Positions 1-32,520 of a DNA stretch of 43,802 nt are shown piece by piece. Source of the stretch: Planctomycetota bacterium. GTDB taxonomy: Bacteria; Planctomycetota; Planctomycetia; Pirellulales; Lacipirellulaceae. Under the pieces are notes generated by a model. That model searched no databases. It had not been told where the DNA came from and saw only the letters and a list, made by a program, of their open reading frames with translations. Position 1 is the first letter of the stretch, and every line of letters starts with the position of its first letter. The position numbers and the translations under genes are program-made. The stretch covers positions 1 through 43,802 of the forward strand of contig JAJRUA010000255.1 in the NCBI GenBank assembly GCA_024278035.1, in the 5' to 3' direction.

Positions 1-657
1 AAGCGATGCACCGGCCCGCTCAACGAGTCCTGGTGTCCAGCAGCCGGCTGCAAGGCAATAGTTGGCTGCGCTAAAATCTCCGGCAGGGGTCGTGACTTGG
101 ACCACTCGATCACCATCGATCGTAAGGGACTTGGCAGGCGATTTCGTAACTATCTGCACGCCTCGCTTATGGCAGGCGGCGGTCACCGCTTGAAGATGCC
201 GCGGATTGCGTACCTGGGCTTCCTGGGGAACGTCGAACGCCGTCACTTCGTTTGCGGAAATTCCCAGGGGGGTGACGGTGATACCTAGCTTTCGCCAACG
301 TGCGAAGGCAGCCGCCAAGAAATTCGCATTCTGCGGCGTCTGAATATAACGACTACCACAGCGCCAGTACTCGTTGTCTATGCCGGTCTCTTCGAGCAGC
401 CGTTCGGACCAGTCGGCGTAAATTTCCCGTGAGGCTACGGCCATTTGGTCGAGCAACGGGTGGTCGCTGTACCAAGAACCGGGAGGAAGAATACCGGCCC
501 CCGCCCACGAGGCCTCACGTCCCAGTTCGCCCCGCTCAAGAAGCGTGACGCTCATCCCATCACACGCCAGTTGGTAGGCGATCGAGAGGCCAACTACGCC
601 CCCGCCGACGACCAGACAATCACTCGTTTGACTTTTTACTGTACGTCCCAAAACCAT
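1..657 (-). CDS. thiO: FAD-dependent amine oxidase, ThiO (glycine oxidase)-like, partial
   Basis: The frame is open from an ATG at 657 down to the left edge, so 219 N-terminal residues are visible and the C-terminus is missing. Residues 15-31 form a Rossmann FAD-binding site (VVGGGVVGLSIAYQLA) ending in an acidic position (LLERGE). The segment EASWAGAGILPPG near residue 52 is the flavin-contacting loop of DAO-family amine oxidases and has the form usual in ThiO. ThiO oxidises glycine to iminoglyoxylate for thiazole synthesis in thiamine biosynthesis. Other DAO-family oxidases (D-amino acid dehydrogenase, sarcosine oxidase-like) cannot be excluded without the C-terminus. No thi genes are visible nearby. 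The first residues (MVLGRTVKS) are encoded by the right arm of a dispersed hairpin repeat (633-719). No other convincing start is available, so the repeat probably supplies the start codon. Confidence 0.75.
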   Translation of the reverse strand, partial: MVLGRTVKSQTSDCLVVGGGVVGLSIAYQLACDGMSVTLLERGELGREASWAGAGILPPGSWYSDHPLLDQMAVASREIYADWSERLLEETGIDNEYWRCGSRYIQTPQNANFLAAAFARWRKLGITVTPLGISANEVTAFDVPQEAQVRNPRHLQAVTAACHKRGVQIVTKSPAKSLTIDGDRVVQVTTPAGDFSAANYCLAAGCWTPGLVERAGASL

Positions 658-719
658 TCGGTCCTTCGGTCTTTCTCGACCGCTGGACGCGTCTCCTGAG
701 GGGTTGGGGGAATAGGCTC
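633..719 (-). repeat. Hairpin repeat family 1, copy A
   Basis: Read on the minus strand, this 87-nt stretch matches the copy at 11068-11151 almost end to end: it begins GAGCCTAT, has the core TCCAGCGGTCGAGAAAGACC and ends TTTTGGGACGTACAGTAAAA. The core folds as CGGTC-GAGAAA-GACCG. The outer stem is degenerate here. It lies immediately upstream of, and overlaps, the start of the ThiO-like gene, in the same orientation. Confidence 0.8.
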
Positions 720-775
720 TTCGTGAGGATGCCATGGAAGAGAGTTGCCCGTTGCTAGTTGCCAAGCAGTAGTCG

Positions 776-1561
776 CTAGTTCGTGCTCAGCCAGTTTTTG
801 ATGTGGGGCGTTAGCTTTATAAGAACTTTGTCTTCGTTGGATATTTCAGCAGCCCTTTCAGCAAGACGTTGCTGCAAAGTGGCTAAATCTTCGGTGGTGT
901 CCACATCGTACCACTGGTCAACAAGCAAGTAATCCTCCCCCTCTCGCCAGCCTGCTTTCTCTAGCCGCTGAAGCGTCGCACGAAGTAGGTCGGGCGAACT
1001 CCACGGCAATCCCTCAAAAACGGGAGCGGGCTCACCCCGAACACCAATCAGCCAGTACCCACCATCTGCTGTCGGGCCCAACACCAAACGATTCGGCGGC
1101 CCCGAACTTAGAAGCCAATCTTGTGCCCTCCGCACAGCAGCGAGTGGCAAGTCGGGACTGTCCGAACCGACTAACAACGCCGCCTGAGCCCCGCCAGCGA
1201 TTGTGGTCTCAAAGAACCATCGCATCCGCTCTCCGAGGCGTGGCAGATCGGGCTGCAAAGCCAATTCCCAGCCTCCGGTACGCACCTGAGGAAGGGCCTC
1301 GAACGCGGCCCGCTCCTTAGCCGGCGTGTAGGCCAAGATGCGTTTGCCCTCCAGAAGCGAAAGACGCTCTAAAGTCACTTCAATAAAGCAACGGGCCGCT
1401 TCTGAGGCGGCACGCTTGCCAATTTTTGCAGCGAGCCGCGTTTTTGCCTTGCCAGGGGTCCAATGCTTGGCAAACAGGCCAACGCACACCGCACGGGCCG
1501 CAGAGCCCGTCCCCCCACTTTCGGGAGGGACGGCGGGCCTCTTTTCCCCGTTTATCGCCAT
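776..1561 (-). CDS. TIGR04282-type glycosyltransferase (DUF2064)
   Basis: The protein is 261 aa from the ATG at 1561. Residues 26-45 carry the family signature (GLFAKHWTPGKAKTRLA). The motif VGSDSPDLP near residue 130 and the later GPTADGGYWLIG match the nucleotide-sugar and metal-binding region of the TIGR04282/DUF2064 family. Members are soluble GT-A-like transferases, usually paired with a TIGR04283 enzyme; databases name both as arsenosugar-biosynthesis glycosyltransferases. A TIGR04283 gene is indeed present, at 6049-6840. The true start may be the GTG at 1489, because residues 6-20 are encoded by a GC-rich hairpin (about 1505-1545) and do not look conserved. Both start options have a poor Shine-Dalgarno site. 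Confidence 0.8.
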   Translation of the reverse strand: MAINGEKRPAVPPESGGTGSAARAVCVGLFAKHWTPGKAKTRLAAKIGKRAASEAARCFIEVTLERLSLLEGKRILAYTPAKERAAFEALPQVRTGGWELALQPDLPRLGERMRWFFETTIAGGAQAALLVGSDSPDLPLAAVRRAQDWLLSSGPPNRLVLGPTADGGYWLIGVRGEPAPVFEGLPWSSPDLLRATLQRLEKAGWREGEDYLLVDQWYDVDTTEDLATLQQRLAERAAEISNEDKVLIKLTPHIKNWLSTN

Positions 1562-4640: not shown

Positions 4641-5372
4641 CTAGCAGCCATTCAACAGTTTCCCTGAATGCGGAAACCACTTCCGCCAAATTACTGGTAA
4701 CGGTGCGACGAGCGTGATCGGCTCACGGCGCACGGGATGCTCGATCGTTAGTCGCCAGGAGTGCAGGGCGATGCCCGGCTCCACGACGACCGTGCTGCCG
4801 TACTTCCGGTCGCCGAGGATCGGCAGGCCGATCTTGGCGAGCTGCACACGGATCTGATGCTTGCGGCCCGTAACAGGGCGAACGACCAGCAGGCTCCGCC
4901 CGGACGTTGCCCGAACGACCTCGTACGACAGCTCCGCGCGCTGGGCTCCGGGGGCCGTGGCATGGGTCGTATGGACCTTACGGTGGCGTTCGTCCTTGCG
5001 GAGGTGATGAACCACGGGCCCCTCACATGGGGGAGCCTCGCCCTCGACAATCGCCGCATAGACTTTCTCGACCTTGCGTTCACGAAAAGCCTCGGAGAGC
5101 CGGCTCGCCGCCTTGGACGTACGCGCCAGCAGCACGAGCCCCGTGACCGGTGCGTCGAGCCGGCTGACAATGCCCAAATAGACAGCCCCCGGCTTGTCGT
5201 GTTTCCGCTTGATATAGGCTTTTGCCTCATCAAGCAACGTCGGCGTGCCGGCAGGTGTCCCCATCGTCGCTAACCCCGGTGGCTTGGCGACGACGAACAA
5301 GTGATTATCTTCGTAGAGGACTTGCAACGGATAGGTTCCTGCTAACGTATGAGCTAAGTTTTTCCCAAGCAT
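4641..5372 (-). CDS. RluA-family RNA pseudouridine synthase
   Basis: 243 aa from the ATG at 5372. Residues 16-34 (LQVLYEDNHLFVVAKPPG) are the standard opening of the RluA family. The catalytic Asp is D73 in SRLDAPVTGLVLLART, and the later VRPVTGRKHQIRVQLA and GLPILGDRKYG are the usual RNA-binding and core motifs. The commonly seen HRLD is SRLD here; the Asp is kept, so activity is expected. The target uridine cannot be predicted. The frame stays open upstream to 5498, but that part encodes only Pro/Gly-rich junk from a C-rich repeat. The chosen start codon sits exactly at the end of that repeat (5371-5473). Divergent from maf. Confidence 0.88.
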   Translation of the reverse strand: MLGKNLAHTLAGTYPLQVLYEDNHLFVVAKPPGLATMGTPAGTPTLLDEAKAYIKRKHDKPGAVYLGIVSRLDAPVTGLVLLARTSKAASRLSEAFRERKVEKVYAAIVEGEAPPCEGPVVHHLRKDERHRKVHTTHATAPGAQRAELSYEVVRATSGRSLLVVRPVTGRKHQIRVQLAKIGLPILGDRKYGSTVVVEPGIALHSWRLTIEHPVRREPITLVAPLPVIWRKWFPHSGKLLNGC

Positions 5373-5473
5373 CCCCCTCCCCCTCAAGGGGGAGAAGTTA
5401 GGGAAGGAGGCGGAATCGTGTACAGGGTTCAAAACCCCTCCCCTAGCCCCTCCCCTAAAAAGGGGAGGGGGAT
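5371..5473. repeat. C-rich inverted-repeat element, copy a
   Basis: The element is bounded by a perfect 12-bp inverted repeat (ATCCCCCTCCCC at 5371-5382 and GGGGAGGGGGAT at 5462-5473). Inside lies a second arm pair, with CCCCTCCCCTAGCCCCTCCC shared almost exactly with the copy at 14971-15097; the string CAGGGTTC just before it corresponds to GAACCCTG in that copy. It fills the divergent gap between the pseudouridine synthase gene and maf and would carry both promoters if they exist. Confidence 0.8.
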
Positions 5474-7036: not shown

Positions 7037-8086
7037 TTGAAGCTAAAAGTGGGGCTAGTTGGACTCGGACCCTCGTGGCAATCGCGCCACCGACCTGCAC
7101 TCAAGGCGCTCAGTTCACGTTTTGAAGTCCGAGCCGTCTGCGATCCGGTGGCTCACAGGGCGGCTCAGGTCGCTTGTGAACTAAAAGCCCGATCTGTGGA
7201 TGGTTTTCGAACGCTCGTCGGGGCGGATGACATTGATGCGGTACTCATGCTCTCGGGCCGATGGTTCGGGGCGCTGCCGATCCTTGCAGCCTGTGATGCG
7301 GGCAAAGCGGTCTACTGCGGAGCGTCGGTCGAAATGCCAGACGACGAGGCGCGTCTCCTCCGCTCGCGTGTTCTCCAATCGGGAGTCGCTTTCATGGCTG
7401 AGCTACCGCACCGGCTTGCCCCCGCCACGATTCGACTCAAAGAGCTGATCGCCACGAGGCTCGGCCCGCCCAAATTGCTTTTCTGCAACGAACGCCACGC
7501 CGCTCCCGACCCAAAAGGCAGTCCCTTTTCGTCCGACAACGGCAGTGGCAACGGAAGCGTCAGTCACACCCGCCGGCTAATTGAAATGGTCGATTGGTGC
7601 CGTTACGTCGCCGGCACCGAAGCGAAGAGCGTCACCGGCCTGCGTCACGCCACCCCCCACAGCGCCGAGCGGGAGGATTATTCGCTCGTAACAATTGAGT
7701 TCGCGCCGAGCCAAGCCCCCTCCAGCCCTTCCGAGCAAAAGCCAGTCGCACAAATCGCCTGTGGTGGTTATGTGCCGAGTGGCTGGAGCGAAGCGGCGGC
7801 GTTTCGTCGTCCTGCGGATATGCAAGTCGTCTGCGAACGGGGCATGGCCTTTCTCGACTTGCCGAACCGGCTCGTCTGGTTCGACGACGCGGGCCAGCAC
7901 ACCGAGTCGCTAGAAAACGAACGCCCTGTGGGCGAGCAGTTACTGATGCAATTCCACCGCTCGGTGGCGAGCCTTGTCCTGCGGCCATCGAGTTTAGAAG
8001 ACGCAATCCGAGCGCTATCGATCGTCATGGCCGCTCAGCAAAGTGCTGAGGAAGGCCGGCGCGTGGAGATCACGAGGGAAGTTTAG
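7037..8086 (+). CDS. Gfo/Idh/MocA-family oxidoreductase
   Basis: 349 aa. The N-terminus (KVGLVGLGPSWQSRHRPAL) is the NAD(P)-binding Rossmann start of the Gfo/Idh/MocA family. Residues 65-90 (DDIDAVLMLSGRWFGALPI) and the following segment (AGKAVYCGASVEMPDDEA) correspond to the strand that normally carries the EKP motif. Here the motif is not intact (CGASVEMP), so the usual catalytic Lys is missing and classical dehydrogenase activity is doubtful. The start is TTG at 7037, seven bases after GAGAG. Residues 160-180 are a Ser/Gly/Asn linker. Substrate is unknown; the gene is a single unit, convergent with guaA. Confidence 0.75.
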   Translation: MKLKVGLVGLGPSWQSRHRPALKALSSRFEVRAVCDPVAHRAAQVACELKARSVDGFRTLVGADDIDAVLMLSGRWFGALPILAACDAGKAVYCGASVEMPDDEARLLRSRVLQSGVAFMAELPHRLAPATIRLKELIATRLGPPKLLFCNERHAAPDPKGSPFSSDNGSGNGSVSHTRRLIEMVDWCRYVAGTEAKSVTGLRHATPHSAEREDYSLVTIEFAPSQAPSSPSEQKPVAQIACGGYVPSGWSEAAAFRRPADMQVVCERGMAFLDLPNRLVWFDDAGQHTESLENERPVGEQLLMQFHRSVASLVLRPSSLEDAIRALSIVMAAQQSAEEGRRVEITREV

Positions 8087-8110
8087 AGGTCTTCGCAAAA
8101 GGGTGCCCGA

Positions 8111-8160
8111 TTTAATCCGTGTTGATCCGCCCAATCCGCGCTTATCCGCGTCTCATTCTT
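8111..8160. repeat. ATCCGCG repeat family, copy a
   Basis: Four spaced ATCCG(C/T)G-like units ending CCGCGTCTCATTCTT, identical over that end to the copy at 13342-13459. It lies in the convergent gap between the Gfo/Idh/MocA gene and guaA. Confidence 0.65.
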
Positions 8161-8189
8161 CGGCGGAGTTGTACCGTATGATACGGGCT

Positions 8190-8216
8190 TTCCGTGCCAG
8201 GATGGCCCGGCTATAG
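8190..8216. repeat. GCCAGGATGGC-GGCTATAG repeat, copy 1
   Basis: A 27-bp unit (TGCCAGGATGGCCCGGCTAT core) that recurs at 16946-16972 and 18624-18651 with few changes. It sits just past the guaA stop codon. Confidence 0.65.
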
Positions 8217-8224
8217 GTGAGGGG

Positions 8225-9811
8225 TTACTCCCATTCAATCGTCGCCGGCGGTTTGCTGCTGATATCATAAACGACGCGGTTGATGCCGGGGACTTCGTTG
8301 ATGATGCGCGTGCTGATCTTGGCGAGCAACTCGTGCGGGAGATGGCTCCAGTCGGCGGTCATGAAGTCGTCGGTGTTCACACAACGGACGGCGATTGTGT
8401 TTTCGTAAGTGCGACTGTCGCCCATCACACCGACCGATTGAACGGGCAACAACACGGCGAACGCTTGCGACGTTTGGCGGTAAAGGCCGGCGGCTTCGAT
8501 CTCGCCGACCACAATCGCATCGGCTTCGCGGAGCGGTACGAGTTTTTCTTCCGTGATTTCTCCAAGGCAGCGAACGGCTAGGCCCGGGCCGGGGAAGGGG
8601 TGTCGCCAGACGATCTCTTCTGGCAAGCCGAGTTGCAGGCCGAGGCGGCGCACCTCGTCTTTGAACAAATCGCGAAGCGGTTCGATCAGCTCAAAACCCA
8701 GTTCCTTGGGCAAGCCGCCAACGTTGTGGTGCAGCTTGATCGTAGCGGCAGGGCCATCGGCGGCAGCACCGCTTTCGATCACGTCGGGGTAGAGCGTTCC
8801 CTGGGCAAGGTACTTGGCATTTTCGACCTTGGTCGCCTCTTCCTTGAAGCAGGCGATGAACTCGGCACCAATGCGGCGTCGTTTTTCTTGTGGGTCTTCG
8901 ACGCCCGCAAGTTGGTGGAGGAATCGCTCTTTGGCTTGCACAACGTGCAGGTCCGCCTTGAAGTGGTCAGAGAACTCTCGAACGACGGCCGCTTGTTCGT
9001 TTTTACGCAGCAGGCCATTATCGACCAGAATGCACGTAAGTTGGGGGCCAATCGCTTTGGCGAGCAGGGCGGCGACGACCGCCGAATCGACGCCGCCAGA
9101 GAGGCCGCAGATCACTCGGTCCGTGCCGACTCGTTCACGCACTCGGGCAATCGCTTCGTCAGCAAAATCGCCCAGACGCCAAGTGCCGGTCGTTTGGCAG
9201 ACCTCACGCAAGAAATTGCCGAGAATTTTCTTGCCATCGACTGAGTGGGTCACTTCCGGGTGGAACTGAAGGCCATAAACGGGAAGTCGCTTATGGCGTA
9301 CCGCCGCGAAGGGGCAGGTCGCCGTACGGGCGAGCGGCTCAAAATCATCGGCGATCTGCTGGACCTGATCGCCGTGGCTCATCCAGACTTCTGTTTGCGA
9401 CGGGACCTCGTGGAACAAATCGCTCGCATCGATCACGTCACAATGGGCGCGGCCATACTCGTGGGACTCAGCGCTCTGGACTTTGCCACCGAGCGCTTCG
9501 CAGGCGAGTTGCATTCCGTAACAAATGCCAAGAACGGGAATGCCTAGCTCGAAGAGCTTGGGGTCGCACCGCGGGGCACCGTCAGCGTACACGCTGTTGG
9601 GACCGCCGGAGAGGATAATTCCCTTGGGAGCAATTTCCGCCATCCGCTCCGCAGATAAATCATGGCGAACGATTTCGCAGTAGACGTTCTCGTCGCGAAC
9701 TCGGCGCGCAATAAGCTGGGCATACTGTGAGCCAAAGTCGAGCACCAACACCCGCTCATGGGCCAAGCGTGAAATGGGGGGGGCAGCTTTTTTGGTAACG
9801 GTAGAGGTCAT
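8225..9811 (-). CDS. guaA: GMP synthase (glutamine-hydrolysing)
   Basis: 528 aa, the normal length. GuaA converts XMP to GMP with ATP and glutamine in purine biosynthesis. The class I glutamine amidotransferase domain (residues 20-205) has the catalytic Cys97 (GICYGMQ) with His184 and Glu186 (FHPEVTHS). The ATP-pyrophosphatase P-loop is SGGVDS at 238-243. The C-terminal dimerisation domain ends in the conserved [21 protein letters not shown] 9811 is preferred over the TTG one codon upstream. The gene is monocistronic, with an unusually long leader region. Confidence 0.97.
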
Positions 9812-10265
9812 CAACCTGTAGCAGTATGTTTAGGAAAAAAAGCCAAGAACTCCTAGGAAAAGAAACTGAACCACGACGGAACGAAGGAACAATGAAAAAG
9901 AGAAAGTGTGGGAAGCGTCTCCGAAGCCGATACGGTGTTGCCTATATCTAGGGCCCGCAACGCGCAGTCGGCATCTTCAGACGCCTCCCTTAATCCAATC
10001 TCCGTTGTTCCGTCATGGTTCAGTTTCTTCCGCCGCCCGTGCCGGGTAGTGCCGGTTCTGCGGGGTGGTGGGTCGTCGGGGATCTGATTCTAGCGACCAG
10101 AGGGCTTAGAAACTAGCAGCGAAGCCTAGGAATGGTTTCGTGGCGGGGGAAAGTCCGCTTATCATGGAGTCAGGGCCCGACCGGGCTCGCAACCCTTTTA
10201 AGCACTCGCTTGACCACTTCTCTTAACACGGCCTCTAACTTTTTGCCACGGATAAGGCACTCCCC
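9812..10265. other. Intergenic region, 454 bp, divergent guaA/surE
   Basis: Contains the large palindromic element at 9861-10028 and then about 240 bp of GC-rich sequence with a small hairpin around 10174-10192 (GGGCCCGACCGGGCTC). A weak promoter-like pair (TTGACC at about 10212) lies before surE. I see no guanine riboswitch signature that I would defend and no tRNA. Confidence 0.45.
9861..10028. repeat. 168-bp long imperfect palindrome
   Basis: The outer arms AGAAACTGAACCACGACGGA (from 9861) and TCCGTCATGGTTCAGTTTCT (to 10028) pair at all but one position over 22 bp. Inner arms at 9910-9941 (starting GGGAAGCGTCT) and 9957-9989 pair imperfectly, closing on a loop around the GGGCCC at 9951. 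This is MITE-like in shape, but no target-site duplication or transposase is evident. Confidence 0.75.
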
Positions 10266-11063
10266 ATGCAAATTCTCTTGACCAACGACGACGGAATCTA
10301 TGCCCCCGGGCTCGCAGCGATGCGCGAGGCGCTTGCTCGACTGGGAGAGGTGTCGGTCGTTGCACCGGCGACGGAGCAAAGTGGGGTAGGGCATTCGATT
10401 ACGTTCCTAACGCCGCTCATGGCGAACCGAGCGTTCAATGGCGACCAGGAACTTGGTTGGGCGGTCGAGGGATCGCCGGCGGACTGTGTGAAACTGGCTC
10501 TCGCTGAGCTGGGTACCGAGGGACCTGAAACATGGCGGCCCGACCTTGTGGTGAGTGGCATTAACGGTGGCTTGAATACGGGGATCAACGTCCTTTACTC
10601 GGGAACCGTCGGTGCGGCAACCGAAGCGGCAATCAACGATTTGCCAGCGATTGCCGTTTCGCTCCAATACGAAGAACGCCCTCGATTTGACGTAGCAGCG
10701 GCGATGGCCGCCGACTTGATTGAACAAATGCTCGAGCAGAATGCTTGGCAAGACCATCGACTGTACAACTTGAACATCCCGACCTCAGCAACGTGCTCGG
10801 AAGAAAACGAAGTGCGTGTCACCCGCATGGGATCGACTCGCTGGGACTCCGCTTATGAAGAACGACGCGACCCACAGGGACGGCGCTACTACTGGACCGT
10901 TGGCACCCCACCAACGGAGAAGCCTGGCTCCGATACGGATATCATTGCCATCCAAGAGGGAGCCATTTCATTGACGCCACTCCTTATCGACCGGACACGA
11001 GGCCGGATGCTGGAAGAGATGCGGTCCTGGGAACTTGGCCTTAACAAAAAAATTAGTATCTAA
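10266..11063 (+). CDS. surE: 5'/3'-nucleotidase SurE
   Basis: 265 aa. SurE is a metal-dependent phosphatase that dephosphorylates nucleoside 5'/3'-monophosphates and short polyphosphates. The N-terminal MQILLTNDDGIYAPG holds the metal-binding D8 and D9. S39 (EQSGVGHS) and the Asn of SGINGGLNTGINVLYSGT are the remaining conserved metal and phosphate ligands. ATG 10266 gives the exact family start. Downstream, 5 bp after the stop, begins the hairpin repeat copy B that precedes the lipoprotein gene. Confidence 0.95.
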   Translation: MQILLTNDDGIYAPGLAAMREALARLGEVSVVAPATEQSGVGHSITFLTPLMANRAFNGDQELGWAVEGSPADCVKLALAELGTEGPETWRPDLVVSGINGGLNTGINVLYSGTVGAATEAAINDLPAIAVSLQYEERPRFDVAAAMAADLIEQMLEQNAWQDHRLYNLNIPTSATCSEENEVRVTRMGSTRWDSAYEERRDPQGRRYYWTVGTPPTEKPGSDTDIIAIQEGAISLTPLLIDRTRGRMLEEMRSWELGLNKKISI

Positions 11064-11067
11064 CTAA

Positions 11068-11151
11068 GAGCCTATCCCAAAAACCATCGGAAGGTATCCA
11101 GCGGTCGAGGAAGACCGAAGTACCTGATGGTTTTGGGACGTGCAGTAAAAA
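11068..11151 (+). repeat. Hairpin repeat family 1, copy B (best folded)
   Basis: A two-part stem is visible. CCCAAAAACCATC (11076-11088) pairs with GATGGTTTTGGG (11126-11137), with one bulged A. AGGTA (11092-11096) pairs with TACCT (11121-11125). Inside is CGGTC-GAGGAA-GACCG (11102-11117). After the hairpin comes the conserved tail ACGTGCAGTAAAAA. It lies 36 bp before the ATG of the lipoprotein gene, same strand. It could be a 5'-UTR structure, a surE terminator or a mobile palindrome. Confidence 0.85.
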
Positions 11152-11187: not shown

Positions 11188-11793
11188 ATGTACCAACGTA
11201 TCACGAAGATAACGCTTATCGCTTGTTTTGCTCTGCTGCCACTTGGTTGTGGCGGCGGTGGGGATGGCACGGCTGATGAGTCGGTGAGCGAAGCCGAGGC
11301 GATGGCCGACGCTCTCGACGAGCAAACCGAGGTCGCTGAAAAGCAATCCGAGATCGAGGCCCTTACTCAGGCGGCCAAAGCGGCACGCACCGAGGCTGAT
11401 CGCCTAGCCAGTTCGGGCCTGACACCAGTCACCCCTGAAGACATGGTGCGTGGCAAGAAAATGAAAAGCGGCGGTATGTTACAGACCACACTCAAGGCAG
11501 GTGTCGTCGCTGAACAGAAGCTCAACATGATCCAGTGGCGACAGGCACTCGATCTCTATGCAGCCATGAACAACCTGGACTATCCCAAGACCCATGAGGA
11601 GTTCATGGAGAAAGTCATTGAAGCGAATGGGATCACGCTCGAACCACTCCTGGAACCGTACGAGTACATCTATAACCCCGAAGAGAGCGACCTGAACAAA
11701 CGGGTGAAGCAAGAAGCAATCGGTGCGGCGGAAGAGGCAGCGCAAGCTGCCGAGGCAGCCCTGGCAGAAGCACAGGCAGCGGTAAAAGAATAA
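11188..11793 (+). CDS. Predicted lipoprotein with coiled-coil ends
   Basis: 201 aa. Residues 1-21 are a lipoprotein signal peptide with lipobox LPLGC (Cys about 21), followed by a Gly run. Residues 32-75 and the last 40 (EAAQAAEAALAEAQAAVKE) are Ala/Glu-rich heptad-like helices. The middle (about 95-160) contains WRQALDLYAAMNNLDYPKTH, resembling small secreted planctomycete proteins of unknown function. I do not recognise a named family. The likely location is the periplasmic face of a membrane. The gene is preceded by the hairpin repeat copy B and followed by a C-rich hairpin at 11806-11846. Confidence 0.75.
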   Translation: MYQRITKITLIACFALLPLGCGGGGDGTADESVSEAEAMADALDEQTEVAEKQSEIEALTQAAKAARTEADRLASSGLTPVTPEDMVRGKKMKSGGMLQTTLKAGVVAEQKLNMIQWRQALDLYAAMNNLDYPKTHEEFMEKVIEANGITLEPLLEPYEYIYNPEESDLNKRVKQEAIGAAEEAAQAAEAALAEAQAAVKE

Positions 11794-13341: not shown

Positions 13342-13459
13342 AAGAATGAGACGCGGAGCCGTGTAGCAATACGGGGCGGATCGAGCGGATGGACACGGAC
13401 GAAAAAAAATTTCATCCTCGCTGATCCGCTAAATCCGCGTTCATCCGCGTCTCATTCTT
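13342..13459. repeat. ATCCGCG repeat family, copy b, complete palindromic element
   Basis: 118 bp, bounded by a perfect 16-bp inverted repeat (AAGAATGAGACGCGGA at 13342-13357 and TCCGCGTCTCATTCTT at 13444-13459). The right half has spaced ATCCGCG-like units. Partial relatives lie at 8111-8160 and 29384-29435. It lies between the regulator gene (stop 13477) and the small membrane protein (start 13314). Confidence 0.8.
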
Positions 13460-13476
13460 CCTTCCAATCAACGCGA

Positions 13477-14970: not shown

Positions 14971-15097
14971 GTAGTCCCCCTCCCCCGTTTTCGGAAGAGG
15001 CCGACTCGCTAGAGAACGGGGGGAGGGGGGTTTTAGAACCCTGTGCATGGTTCAGCCCCCTCCCCTAGCCCCTCCCCCCAAAGGGGAGGGGGACTAC
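14971..15097. repeat. C-rich inverted-repeat element, copy b
   Basis: 127 bp bounded by a perfect 15-bp inverted repeat (GTAGTCCCCCTCCCC at 14971-14985 and GGGGAGGGGGACTAC at 15083-15097). It contains the same CCCCTCCCCTAGCCCCTCCC core as copy a. It lies between the kinase and regulator genes, within what would otherwise be one operon. Confidence 0.8.
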
Positions 15098-29450: not shown

Positions 29451-31301
29451 CTACGAAGTGGTATTGGTCTGGCCCTCGGGCATTTGTGGATAATCTTCCA
29501 GGCGATCGTACCAGTTCCACTTCAAGAAGAGCGAGCAGACGAGGACAGCCCCCACGGCGATGGAGAGCGATTGGTAATCTTGTAAGACCAAATAAATGCC
29601 CGTTACGGTCAAGCCGGTTTGCCAAGCGATTACTACAGCCACATTGAGCAAGTCGCGGCCCATGGCTCGGTTAGCAACGAGATCGGGATAACGCTCCGCC
29701 AATCGATTATGAACAGGCCCCCAAAAACCCCACGGACGCACCTTGAGATAAAATTGATTGAGCACTTCTTCGTCGTCCGGCGGAGTTAGCAGCGTGCCCA
29801 AGAGACAACCTACGAGCGCCAAGCCGAGGATCGTCGGGAAGGCGTAGATAACCGCCATGTCAGGATAGAACCAGGGCACAATAGCAGCGCTGATGATGCC
29901 TGCCATCATCCCCCAGAAGAAACCGTAACTATTGAACCGCCACCAGTGCCATTTGAGCAGGTTCGACGCGGTGTACCCGCCGTACAGAGCAGAGACAATC
30001 CACTTCACAAGGTCGTTCAGAGATTCCACGACAAAGCCCAAGGAGACGCCAATCACCACCACGATGATCGAAACGGCATAGCTCATGTGGACATAGGTTT
30101 TCTCATCGGCATTCGGATTGAGATAGCGCTTGTAGATGTCGTTTACAACGTAAGCCGGAGCGGCATTCACCGTAGCCGCATAGGTGGACATAAACGCTGC
30201 CAGAAGGGCTGAAATGAGCAGTCCCAGCAATCCTGCGGGGATGAGTTGGCTAAGCGCAAGGGGGAGTATCCGCTCAAAATCGACGGCGTCGCCCATGGCA
30301 TTAAGATCATCGGAAAGGAACGCTAGTGCTAAAACAGCCAGCCCCGTGATGAGCAAGTAGCGAGGAACGAGAAGCACAAGGCTGACGAAGCCGCTCATGT
30401 AGGCCGCTTCGCGGGGCGTACGAGCCGATAGGACACGCTGCATATCGTAGTTGGGAGCAGGGCCCGCCATGCTCTGCAAGCTTCCTTTGAAGAGCATCGT
30501 GATGAAAAAGATCGTAAACAACTCCCAACCATCATCGACAATTTTTTGATTGGCCGCATCCATCAAGCCAGACCAATCGAGATCCAATTTCCATCCGAAC
30601 CACAGATCGTTCCAACCGTGAGGGACAAGCGTCTCGATCATCTCAGGAGAAACTTGTTGCATCGCAAGCACGCCGACCCAAATGCAGGCGATCGTCATAA
30701 TGACGAATTGCAAAACCTCTGTGAAAACAACACTAAGCATGCCACCCTTCACGACATAGAGCGTCGTGATGGCCGTGATGATCAGGCCGTAAAGATTGGC
30801 GTTGGTTGTCGGATCAGCAGCCAGTTCCCACGGCAGGAAAGTTGCCGAAAATTTGCCGATGCCGATGAAACCGTAGGCGAGAAATCCGATGACGTTAATC
30901 AGCGCAAAGATAACGACGATCATGTGCGCTAGCTGGGATCCACGGCTATCCCCAAACCGGAAGCGAATCCACTCGGCCCCCGTCATAACGCCTGAGCGTC
31001 GGAGCCAGAGCGATAGGTAGATCATCATGAAAATCTGGTTGAAGACAGGCCACAACCAGGGGATCCACGCACTCTTCAGACCGTAGACGTACAGCAGATA
31101 GACCATCCACATGGTACCGCTGATGTCGAACATGCCTGAAGCATTCGACAAACCGAGAAAGTACCAAGGGATTTTGTTCCCGCCTAGAAAATAGTTACTG
31201 ATGCTCTTCGACGCTTGGCGGGAAATCCAGAAGCCGATGCCTACCGTGAGGATCAGATAGACGATCAGGATGACCTGATCGATCCGAGAGAAGTTTTCCA
31301 T
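29451..31301 (-). CDS. Sodium:solute symporter (SSS family)
   Basis: 616 aa with about 13-14 membrane helices. The N-terminus (LILTVGIGFWISRQ, then SNYFLGGNKIPWYFLGLS) is the SSS opening, and sodium-site helix 1 (SNASGMFDISG) and the SALLAAFMSTYAATVNAAPA segment of helix 8 are clear. In this locus the likely cargo is a mannooligosaccharide or hexose, driven by Na+. It lies between GH130 and GH5-like genes in the same direction. A copy of the hairpin repeat (31303-31392) occupies the leader just before its ATG. Confidence 0.9.
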   Translation of the reverse strand: MENFSRIDQVILIVYLILTVGIGFWISRQASKSISNYFLGGNKIPWYFLGLSNASGMFDISGTMWMVYLLYVYGLKSAWIPWLWPVFNQIFMMIYLSLWLRRSGVMTGAEWIRFRFGDSRGSQLAHMIVVIFALINVIGFLAYGFIGIGKFSATFLPWELAADPTTNANLYGLIITAITTLYVVKGGMLSVVFTEVLQFVIMTIACIWVGVLAMQQVSPEMIETLVPHGWNDLWFGWKLDLDWSGLMDAANQKIVDDGWELFTIFFITMLFKGSLQSMAGPAPNYDMQRVLSARTPREAAYMSGFVSLVLLVPRYLLITGLAVLALAFLSDDLNAMGDAVDFERILPLALSQLIPAGLLGLLISALLAAFMSTYAATVNAAPAYVVNDIYKRYLNPNADEKTYVHMSYAVSIIVVVIGVSLGFVVESLNDLVKWIVSALYGGYTASNLLKWHWWRFNSYGFFWGMMAGIISAAIVPWFYPDMAVIYAFPTILGLALVGCLLGTLLTPPDDEEVLNQFYLKVRPWGFWGPVHNRLAERYPDLVANRAMGRDLLNVAVVIAWQTGLTVTGIYLVLQDYQSLSIAVGAVLVCSLFLKWNWYDRLEDYPQMPEGQTNTTS

Positions 31302-31302
31302 A

Positions 31303-31392
31303 TCTTACTAACACGTCTCCGAACTGCTGGGTGCTTCGATCTTTTCCGACCGCTGGAGATTTCCAAATGAGTTTTCGGAGGGGCTCCTATTC
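31303..31392 (-). repeat. Hairpin repeat family 1, copy C (compensated outer stem)
   Basis: On the minus strand the core is CTCCAGCGGTCGGAAAAGAT followed by CGAAG. CGGTC-GGAAAA-GATCG still pairs, with one G-U. The outer stem has different sequence from copy B but still pairs: CTCCGAA (plus-strand 31374-31380) with TTCGGAG (31317-31323). The tail GACGTGTTAGTAAGAT matches the other copies. It ends just before the symporter ATG. Confidence 0.75.
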
Positions 31393-31437: not shown

Positions 31438-32520
31438 TTAGAAAACGGCCGAGTTGGATTTGGTGAAGTCAATCAACTCGTCGATCTTTGTGTAGCAGAC
31501 ACAAGTGCAAGTGTCGGCCGCTCCATAGTAGATGGCCAACCGTCCGGTCCCCTCGTCGTGCAATGCGGCACAGGGGAAAAAAACGTTGGGCACATGGCCA
31601 CTAATTTCGTACTCGGCGTCGGGGGTCAAAAGGTGTTGGTTCGTTCGGTAAAGAACGCGCCACGGTTCGTCGAGGTCGAGCAGAGCGGCTCCCATGCTGT
31701 AGACAAAACCGTTGCAAGTATCCATCACACCGTGGTAGATCATGAGCCAGCCGTCAGGCGTCTCGATCGGAATCGGCCCGGCGCCAATTTTGGTTCGCTG
31801 CCACCATTGCCCCAAGTGATCGCCCCCCTTACGCATTACGAGGCGATGACAACCCCAATGGATCATGTCCGGGCTTTGGCTCAGATAGATATCGCCAAAC
31901 GGAGTATGGCCATTGTCACTCGGCCGGCTCAACATGCAGAACTTGCCGTCGATTTTCCTAGGGAACAAAACCCCGTTGCGATTGAACGGAAGGAAGGCGT
32001 TCTCCATTTGCTCGAAAGAACAGAAGTCCTTTGTACGAGCCAAGCTAATCGTCGGGCCATTGTTTCCGCCACACCAGGAGACGTAGTACCAATCTTCGAT
32101 CTTGACGACACGTGGGTCGTAGGCGTAATCGCTTGGATCGGTCTCTCGGTTACTAAAAACAACAGGCTTGGGCTCAATCTGCCAATCCAGCGCGTCGTCA
32201 CTCCAGCCGACGTGAAGGTGGGGGAAACGTGTGTGGTCTTCGGTGCGGAAGACACCGGCGTAGCCATCTCCGAAGGGGACGACTGCGCTGTTGTAAATCC
32301 CTTGAATGCCTGGCATTGGCTTGCGACCAATGATCGGGTTACCCCGGTGCCGCCAAACGACCTCTTTGCTATCAACGGGTCGGTCTTGCCATGGGAAACT
32401 CGCCCGGACCGAAGTGCCCGATAAGCCCTGTTTGGCTTTCGGGGTGCCCGATTTTGGGGCGCCCGGCTTGGGGGCGACTGTACGGCTAGCAGCTTCTGCG
32501 GCGGGACCGAGAGGATTCAT
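31438..32520 (-). CDS. GH130-family beta-mannoside phosphorylase
   Basis: 360 aa from ATG 32520, with GGAA upstream; a TTG 11 codons further up is less likely. GH130 enzymes phosphorolyse beta-1,4-mannosides to mannose 1-phosphate in the cytoplasm. Family features are RGNPIIGRKPMPGIQGIYNS (59-78), FRTEDHTRFPHLHVGWSDD, catalytic Asp 135 in YAYDPRVV, RNGVLFPRKIDGKFCMLSRP, GAGPIPIETPDGWLMIYHG and IYYGAADT. There is no signal peptide; residues 1-40 are a low-complexity Pro/Ala/Lys tail. First gene of the leftward unit, behind a good sigma70-type promoter. Confidence 0.92.
   Translation of the reverse strand: MNPLGPAAEAASRTVAPKPGAPKSGTPKAKQGLSGTSVRASFPWQDRPVDSKEVVWRHRGNPIIGRKPMPGIQGIYNSAVVPFGDGYAGVFRTEDHTRFPHLHVGWSDDALDWQIEPKPVVFSNRETDPSDYAYDPRVVKIEDWYYVSWCGGNNGPTISLARTKDFCSFEQMENAFLPFNRNGVLFPRKIDGKFCMLSRPSDNGHTPFGDIYLSQSPDMIHWGCHRLVMRKGGDHLGQWWQRTKIGAGPIPIETPDGWLMIYHGVMDTCNGFVYSMGAALLDLDEPWRVLYRTNQHLLTPDAEYEISGHVPNVFFPCAALHDEGTGRLAIYYGAADTCTCVCYTKIDELIDFTKSNSAVF

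Follow-up and report, generated by a model that had tools for sequence, protein, structure and literature searches.

The window, a stretch of 43,802 nucleotides of DNA, carries three copies of a hairpin repeat, and the question raised by the locus is whether such a repeat is a cis-acting leader RNA or a structured palindrome that moves. The copies lie at the places and on the strands first reported for them, with copies A and C on the minus strand and copy B on the plus strand. The core pattern given in the preliminary description returns these three matches, all exact in a search that permitted up to three mismatches, and none of 100 shuffled sequences reached three. Written as CCAGCGGTC-N4-AAGAYCGAAG, the core has three occurrences in the window, compared with an average of 0.01 in shuffled sequences. 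The three copies belong to an interspersed repeat family, beyond what chance would give. Their 3' halves are identically spaced as far as GACGT, and the tail that was said to be common to them, GACGT-N2-AGTAA, is present in copies A and B, whereas copy C has GACGT-N3-AGTAA.

As read from the sequence, copy B spans 11065..11148 on the plus strand when the TAA on either side (11065-11067 and 11146-11148) is counted, and its element proper (11068-11145) begins with GAGCCTATCCCAAAAACC and ends with GGTTTTGGGACGTGCAG. Copy A occupies 636..722 on the minus strand, with GAA at 722-720, TAA at 638-636 and the element proper at 719-639, and copy C occupies 31305..31389, also on the minus strand, with TAG at 31389-31387, TAA at 31307-31305 and the element proper at 31386-31308. 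Taken from GAGCC up to the final G ahead of the right-hand TAA, element length is 78 nt in B, 81 nt in A and 79 nt in C, and only B among the window copies has TAA on both sides (A has GAA/TAA and C has TAG/TAA). Against a covariance model made from the three copies themselves, B scores 107.9 bits, A 89.3 bits and C 86.6 bits, each copy being part of the model that scores it.

The genes around the copies share the orientation of the copy in each case. Copy B follows surE (10266..11063, plus strand; PF01975), the TAA stop of which ends one base ahead of the left TAA of the copy, and precedes a lipoprotein-like gene (11188..11793, plus strand), an ORF with no Pfam or NCBIfam match; relatives have similar DNA at the corresponding position. 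Copy C lies between a mannoside-phosphorylase-like gene on its 5' side (31438..32520, minus strand; NF050092 at 183.6 bits, below the curated cut-off of 550) and a sodium:solute (SSF) symporter gene on its 3' side (29451..31301, minus strand; PF00474). The 5' neighbor of copy A is a DUF2064 gene (776..1561, minus strand; PF09837), the start of which is taken from a home-made gene finder. Each copy had been described as lying directly 5' of a start codon; this is true of copy C, 3 nt ahead of the symporter ATG at 31301, and loosely of copy B, 39 nt ahead of the lipoprotein ATG at 11188, but not of copy A, which is better placed inside the coding sequence of a ThiO-like gene.

Comparison with related genomes indicates that the repeat is mobile. 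By its GMP synthase the window is nearest to genome G098 (85% identity) among 396 genomes, a sample of the order of a Pirellulaceae MAG. The order of SurE and the lipoprotein is kept in four close genomes (G098, G078, G089 and G061), and in 4/4 of them the site of copy B is empty, with 16-34 nt separating the SurE stop from the first ATG and no covariance-model match in the stretches fetched. Copy B was therefore inserted in the lineage of the window or lost in the four relatives. A covariance model of the three copies, the check that the preliminary description had proposed, places the repeat in 10 of the 43 genomes of the nearest family, with 41 copies in G177, 21 each in G106 and G193, 12 in G209, three in G118, two in G134 and single copies in G138, G189, G197 and G201, a total of 104 copies over the 10 carriers. 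With a second covariance model at least 12 of the 396 genomes in the order carry the repeat, G147 and G179 being added; here 11 candidates per genome were scored, and the copy and carrier counts are lower bounds.

The copy set used below comprises 101 rows including the three from the window, minus one duplicated place, giving 100 copies; seven places in G177 and three overlapping tandem units stand outside it. The consensus ends of this set are ACTAA, GAGCCTATCCCAGAACC ... GGTTTTGGGACGTGCAG, TAAA, and head-to-tail arrays are present, with periods of 80-84 nt in the arrays read. The repeat thus exists as about 100 copies with changes in related genomes and is not confined to leaders. Scans for the exact core gave only chance matches in viral contigs (four matches) and in genome contigs (17 matches), and since most relatives of the repeat lack the exact core such scans are a poor gauge of its spread; a distant search of plasmids for the repeat gave no match. 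Among open-licence publications, at the level of titles and the beginnings of abstracts, we found no description of this repeat family.

A leader RNA, either riboswitch-like or a general expression element, would be expected to be conserved upstream of genes, and several features of the repeat would suit it. The hairpin is stable, sense copies exceed antisense copies between co-directional genes (33 versus 18), and 16 copies lie in divergent gaps against three in convergent gaps (raw counts over gaps of any length). The outer stem that had been described as compensated does pair in copy B (CCCAAAA/TTTTGGG) and, with a different sequence, in copy C (CTCCGAA/TTCGGAG), but copy A pairs more poorly, with two C.U mismatches, and the compensation does not extend to all copies. 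Across the copies, in an alignment fitted to this same structure and biased toward it, 13 of 17 pairs are changed on both sides compared with 9.1 in shuffles, and 72 cells are changed on both sides compared with 43.3. These counts lie above the shuffles, in the direction of the selection on structure that had been proposed; the four innermost pairs of the outer helix hold 45 of the 72 cells. As a wobble test of which strand folds, G.U and A.C cells were counted over 13 pairs, giving 155 and 59, but with three wobble-rich pairs set aside (chosen after viewing the table) the counts become 50 and 53, so that G.U is not favored over A.C. These numbers fit drift among dead copies together with differences between the source copies, and most of the stem variation looks like drift; the compensated difference between B and C is real and does not need selection on RNA.

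The placement of the copies speaks more directly against a leader. Rfam gave no match in the whole window at the gathering threshold, the three downstream genes in the window are unrelated, and the repeat is absent from orthologous sites. Gene overlap was judged with a home-made hexamer gene finder rather than a standard caller, and by this measure 20 of the 100 copies overlap a predicted gene and 80 are intergenic, 18 of the latter lying between two genes that are both on the strand opposite to the copy; copies are found inside genes, at a gene end and in antisense. The leader RNA proposed in the preliminary description is not supported by these results and was dropped after this test, and we regard a conserved cis-acting leader as extremely improbable.

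The other half of the original proposal, a structured mobile palindrome, agrees with the empty SurE-lipoprotein sites, with homologous genes free of a copy and with the IS5-type ends and target duplications of relatives of the repeat. Those relatives that were read in G147, G179 and G201 are 66-69 bp long and have symmetric or near-symmetric 17-bp ends (GARCCTRTCCSARAACY). Among 28 elements with paired ends, of which one (L107) comes from the three-copy family and the rest are relatives, 17 have identical flanks of 3 bp, where shuffling gives 10.7 on average (p 0.001), and flanks of 2 bp or 4 bp show no excess of identity. The identical pairs include three TTA/TTA and one TGA/TGA, which indicates that the target duplication is TNA. 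Within the three-copy family, the left and right trinucleotides of the 69 of 100 copies that passed the anchor filter show no covariation, and TAA/TAA is found in 23 of these 69. The 3-bp duplication is demonstrated on the relatives only, and not within the three-copy family.

Similar ends also bound a transposase. In G138 a 614-bp element (G138:C3:20358-20971) combines such ends with a TAA on each side and a 193-residue ORF that matches IS5 transposases (NF033580, E 3.9e-43; PF13340, 9.9e-27; PF13586) and is shorter than the model, which has 258 positions. A degraded 935-bp element of this kind, flanked by TTA/TAA, is present in G179. PF13340 is present in 6 of 12 genomes searched, with internal stops in 9 of 10 matches, and no complete IS bearing the right end of the three-copy family was found in the genomes searched; the source element may be extinct or absent from the assemblies. 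Both ends are present in the near-symmetric relatives and in the G138 relic. In the three-copy family the right end resembles the left end poorly, and it is the left end that is common to the IS5 relic, the right end only partly so.

A different route of movement would make the repeat a REP-like palindrome carried as single-stranded DNA by a Y1 (HUH, RAYT, IS200/IS605) transposase, with no target duplication. The preferred left flank, ACTAA, is in keeping with such a route, as are the head-to-tail arrays, which would be accounted for by the likeness of the left flank (A)CTAA to the right end GTAA. An insertion in the VWA/BatA gene of G106 has ambiguous 3-bp edges, Y1_Tnp is present in carriers, and one copy lies about 0.9 kb from a Y1 gene. 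However, Y1_Tnp is found in 42 of the 43 genomes of the family, whether carriers or not, and in eight Y1 loci (L141-L148, part of the Y1 genes of the carriers) neither end occurs at up to four mismatches and none is flanked by the repeat. The TNA duplications of the relatives, TTA/TTA and TGA/TGA among them, and the IS5 transposase between similar ends are likewise at odds with this route, which we consider very improbable. An explicit HUH/Y1 model, with CTAA as target, GTAA as right end and no duplication, was abandoned on account of the TNA duplications in relatives.

Elements of the IS1031 group, according to one account, prefer TNA targets and produce 3-bp repeats, and one of them has 17-bp ends, GAACCTGTCTAGTATCT (PMC12016507). 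Taking together the ends, the TNA duplication of the relatives, the IS5 relic and this description, we take the hairpin repeat to be a mobile IS5-family MITE of IS1031 type, some copies of which persist in frame in genes, and put the probability of this at about 0.88. The repeat resembles such MITEs in that its relatives have 17-bp ends starting GARCC and a 3-bp TNA duplication, in its lack of transposase coding, in its many copies and in the similar ends that flank an IS5 transposase relic; it differs in the asymmetric right end of the three-copy family and in the copies that lie in genes. An element of about 80 nt has no room for a transposase of its own, and its transposition would have been driven in trans by an IS5 transposase. 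The asymmetric right end can be read as divergence from an IS1031-type end, the right end having probably changed in the lineage of the window to CTGCACGTCCC in place of GAGCCTATCCC. Copies B and C would then be intergenic insertions between co-directional genes, and copy A would have inserted in frame close to where the ThiO-like gene begins.

Other repeats were seen in the window and in the related genomes. A 29-nt inverted repeat (GAACCACGACGGAACGAAGGA; 9860-9888 and 10001-10029, 90% complementary and 112 nt apart) is probably another MITE family, since GAACCACRRCG palindromes that resemble it occur at loci L130 and L133 of relatives. A nested palindrome some 200 bp long, starting with GCGAGCGGCAGATAGGAATTTACC, interrupts a minus-strand copy of the hairpin repeat at L130 (G193:C4, contig positions about 7983-8262). 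Also in G193, elements of 183-417 bp (L177-L181 and L193) have ends like GARCCTATCCCARAACT and ACGGAGTCACGGAG-like inverted arms, and represent longer MITEs with similar ends. The window further has a 52-nt direct repeat (8110-8161 and 13409-13460, 85% identical) with several ATCCGCG-like stretches, text similar to which sits 5' of hisG in G106 (L150), and GC-rich hairpin repeats at 5371-5473 and 14975-15093 (CCCCTCCCCTAGCCCCTCCCC/GGGGAGGGG).

The clearest departure from an ordinary MITE is the position of copies within genes. All 20 gene-overlapping copies are sense, and in all 20 the length in nucleotides is divisible by three, compared with 43 of the 80 intergenic copies (Fisher 4e-5). Of these 20 copies, 11 are internal, one is at a gene end and eight are at a gene start, a position at which the choice of start codon is uncertain. 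Under a strict test, in which the element was deleted and a spanning coding ORF was then required, 10 of the 100 copies qualify, nine sense and one antisense (one-sided p 0.011), and the nine sense copies are all among the 20, hence open with the copy in place. Sense-only placement is not absolute, given the antisense copy at L086 (G209:C258:2465-2550), which apparently disrupts a coding ORF; once it is removed, two strongly coding halves share one frame. In the same strict test, none of 24 near-symmetric or longer relatives lies in a gene, a difference from 10 of 100 that is not significant (Fisher p 0.2).

Among the 80 intergenic copies, the antisense frames a1 and a2 are open in 55 and 52, and the sense frames s0 and s1 in 50 and 48. 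Antisense frames being as often open as sense frames, stop codons alone cannot account for the preference for one strand. Hydrophilicity is higher in the sense peptides, with mean GRAVY values of -0.98 and -0.76 versus -0.24 and 0.01 for the antisense peptides. The common unit together with its duplication measures 81 or 84 nt, a length at which insertion can preserve the reading frame. With two sense frames that are mostly open and hydrophilic, some copies would survive in genes and add about 27 residues, and gene-breaking copies would mostly be lost. Purifying selection may in this way cause the sense and in-frame bias, the inserts presumably being translated.

Copy A illustrates this arrangement. 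The ThiO-like FAD-dependent oxidoreductase gene (1..735, minus strand; PF01266 on 1-624) runs off the window, and its translation from the ATG at 735 passes through copy A in frame throughout, giving MASSR, then RAYSPNPSGDASSGRERPKDRMVLGRTVK from the element, then SQTSDCLVVGGG. Between copy A and the conserved SDCLVVGGG there is no ATG, GTG or TTG codon, so that, barring a rarer start codon, the start of the gene lies in or before the element. Ten of the best 12 relatives align only from residue 32-37 onward (the other two from 13 and 23), and in seven relatives the likely ATG, judged by eye, is about 5-16 residues ahead of the conserved part, with the segment absent. The home-made gene finder called copy A intergenic and the in-frame reading comes from this separate translation, by which copy A is better read as an in-frame insertion in the 5' coding end of the gene.

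Homologue comparisons extend this to other genes. In the VWA/BatA protein of G106, LAF and NTGDP are separated by 27 additional residues, RAYPRTSMEASSGRESLNNQTVLGRAV, that are absent in 6/6 aligned homologues, one of them 89% identical (six aligned of at least 120 listed). A PfkB-type kinase of G177 likewise has 27 extra residues that are absent in 5/5 aligned homologues (five of at least 120 listed). In hisG of G209 a copy follows ATGACT and is in frame from the ATG; at that point 5 of 9 orthologues continue directly with ATGACYGARAAY, and in none of the nine does the repeat stand just ahead of the shared hisG part, although one of them shows only a run of N at this position. A sulfatase-like gene of G106, so judged by eye, contains two tandem copies in frame. 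Together, the length bias, hisG and the two homologue comparisons with a clean outcome suggest that these are kept in-frame inserts of traceable IS5 origin.

It may be asked whether the intergenic copies have also acquired a use, such that a repeat of mobile origin would act, as copies B and C, on the translation or mRNA stability of the gene behind. Each of the three copies in the window has the orientation of the gene that follows it, and the sense excess between co-directional genes given above would fit as well, but this excess is small (p 0.049) and could be produced by gene-start effects. We consider such domesticated use unlikely.

The in-gene copies invite comparison with the Rickettsia palindromic elements (RPEs), which are described as palindromes of 100-150 bp that lie in frame within many Rickettsia genes (PMC10969869, PMC3733652, PMC3767692). 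By description, the repeat is like RPEs and the Wolbachia coding palindromes in being short, palindromic, present in many copies and in frame in unrelated genes, to which it adds tens of residues; in-frame insertion in several unrelated genes, by which the RPE class is recognized, was found here. It differs, when set against RPEs by description, in belonging to another phylum and in having a transposon origin that can be traced; for CGTC-tagged REPs, including RPE-4 and RPE-6, a dedicated transposase is reported to be absent. REP/BIME elements with RAYT are also interspersed hairpins, mainly intergenic with some inside genes, whereas the planctomycete repeat is longer (about 80 nt), has relatives with TNA duplication, shows no RAYT link in the eight Y1 loci and is commoner in divergent than in convergent gaps. 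We see roughly even odds that an IS5-derived MITE became a coding palindrome of about 27 codons, frame-keeping, hydrophilic and almost only sense in genes, which would be an independent, transposon-rooted origin of an RPE-like element in planctomycetes.

The repeat is thus transposon-derived and of a known kind, and its landing sites inside genes are its unusual habit. How short palindromes come to sit in frame in genes is, to our knowledge, still open for RPEs. Near-symmetric MITEs, asymmetric MITEs with copies in genes and IS5 relics occur in related genomes, which makes it possible to compare the stages between a transposon and a coding insert. Gene starts and protein lengths in these genomes are open to misannotation, the ThiO-like gene being a possible case. 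If true, the reading of the repeat as a coding palindrome would offer a model of the way in which RPEs and similar elements originate.
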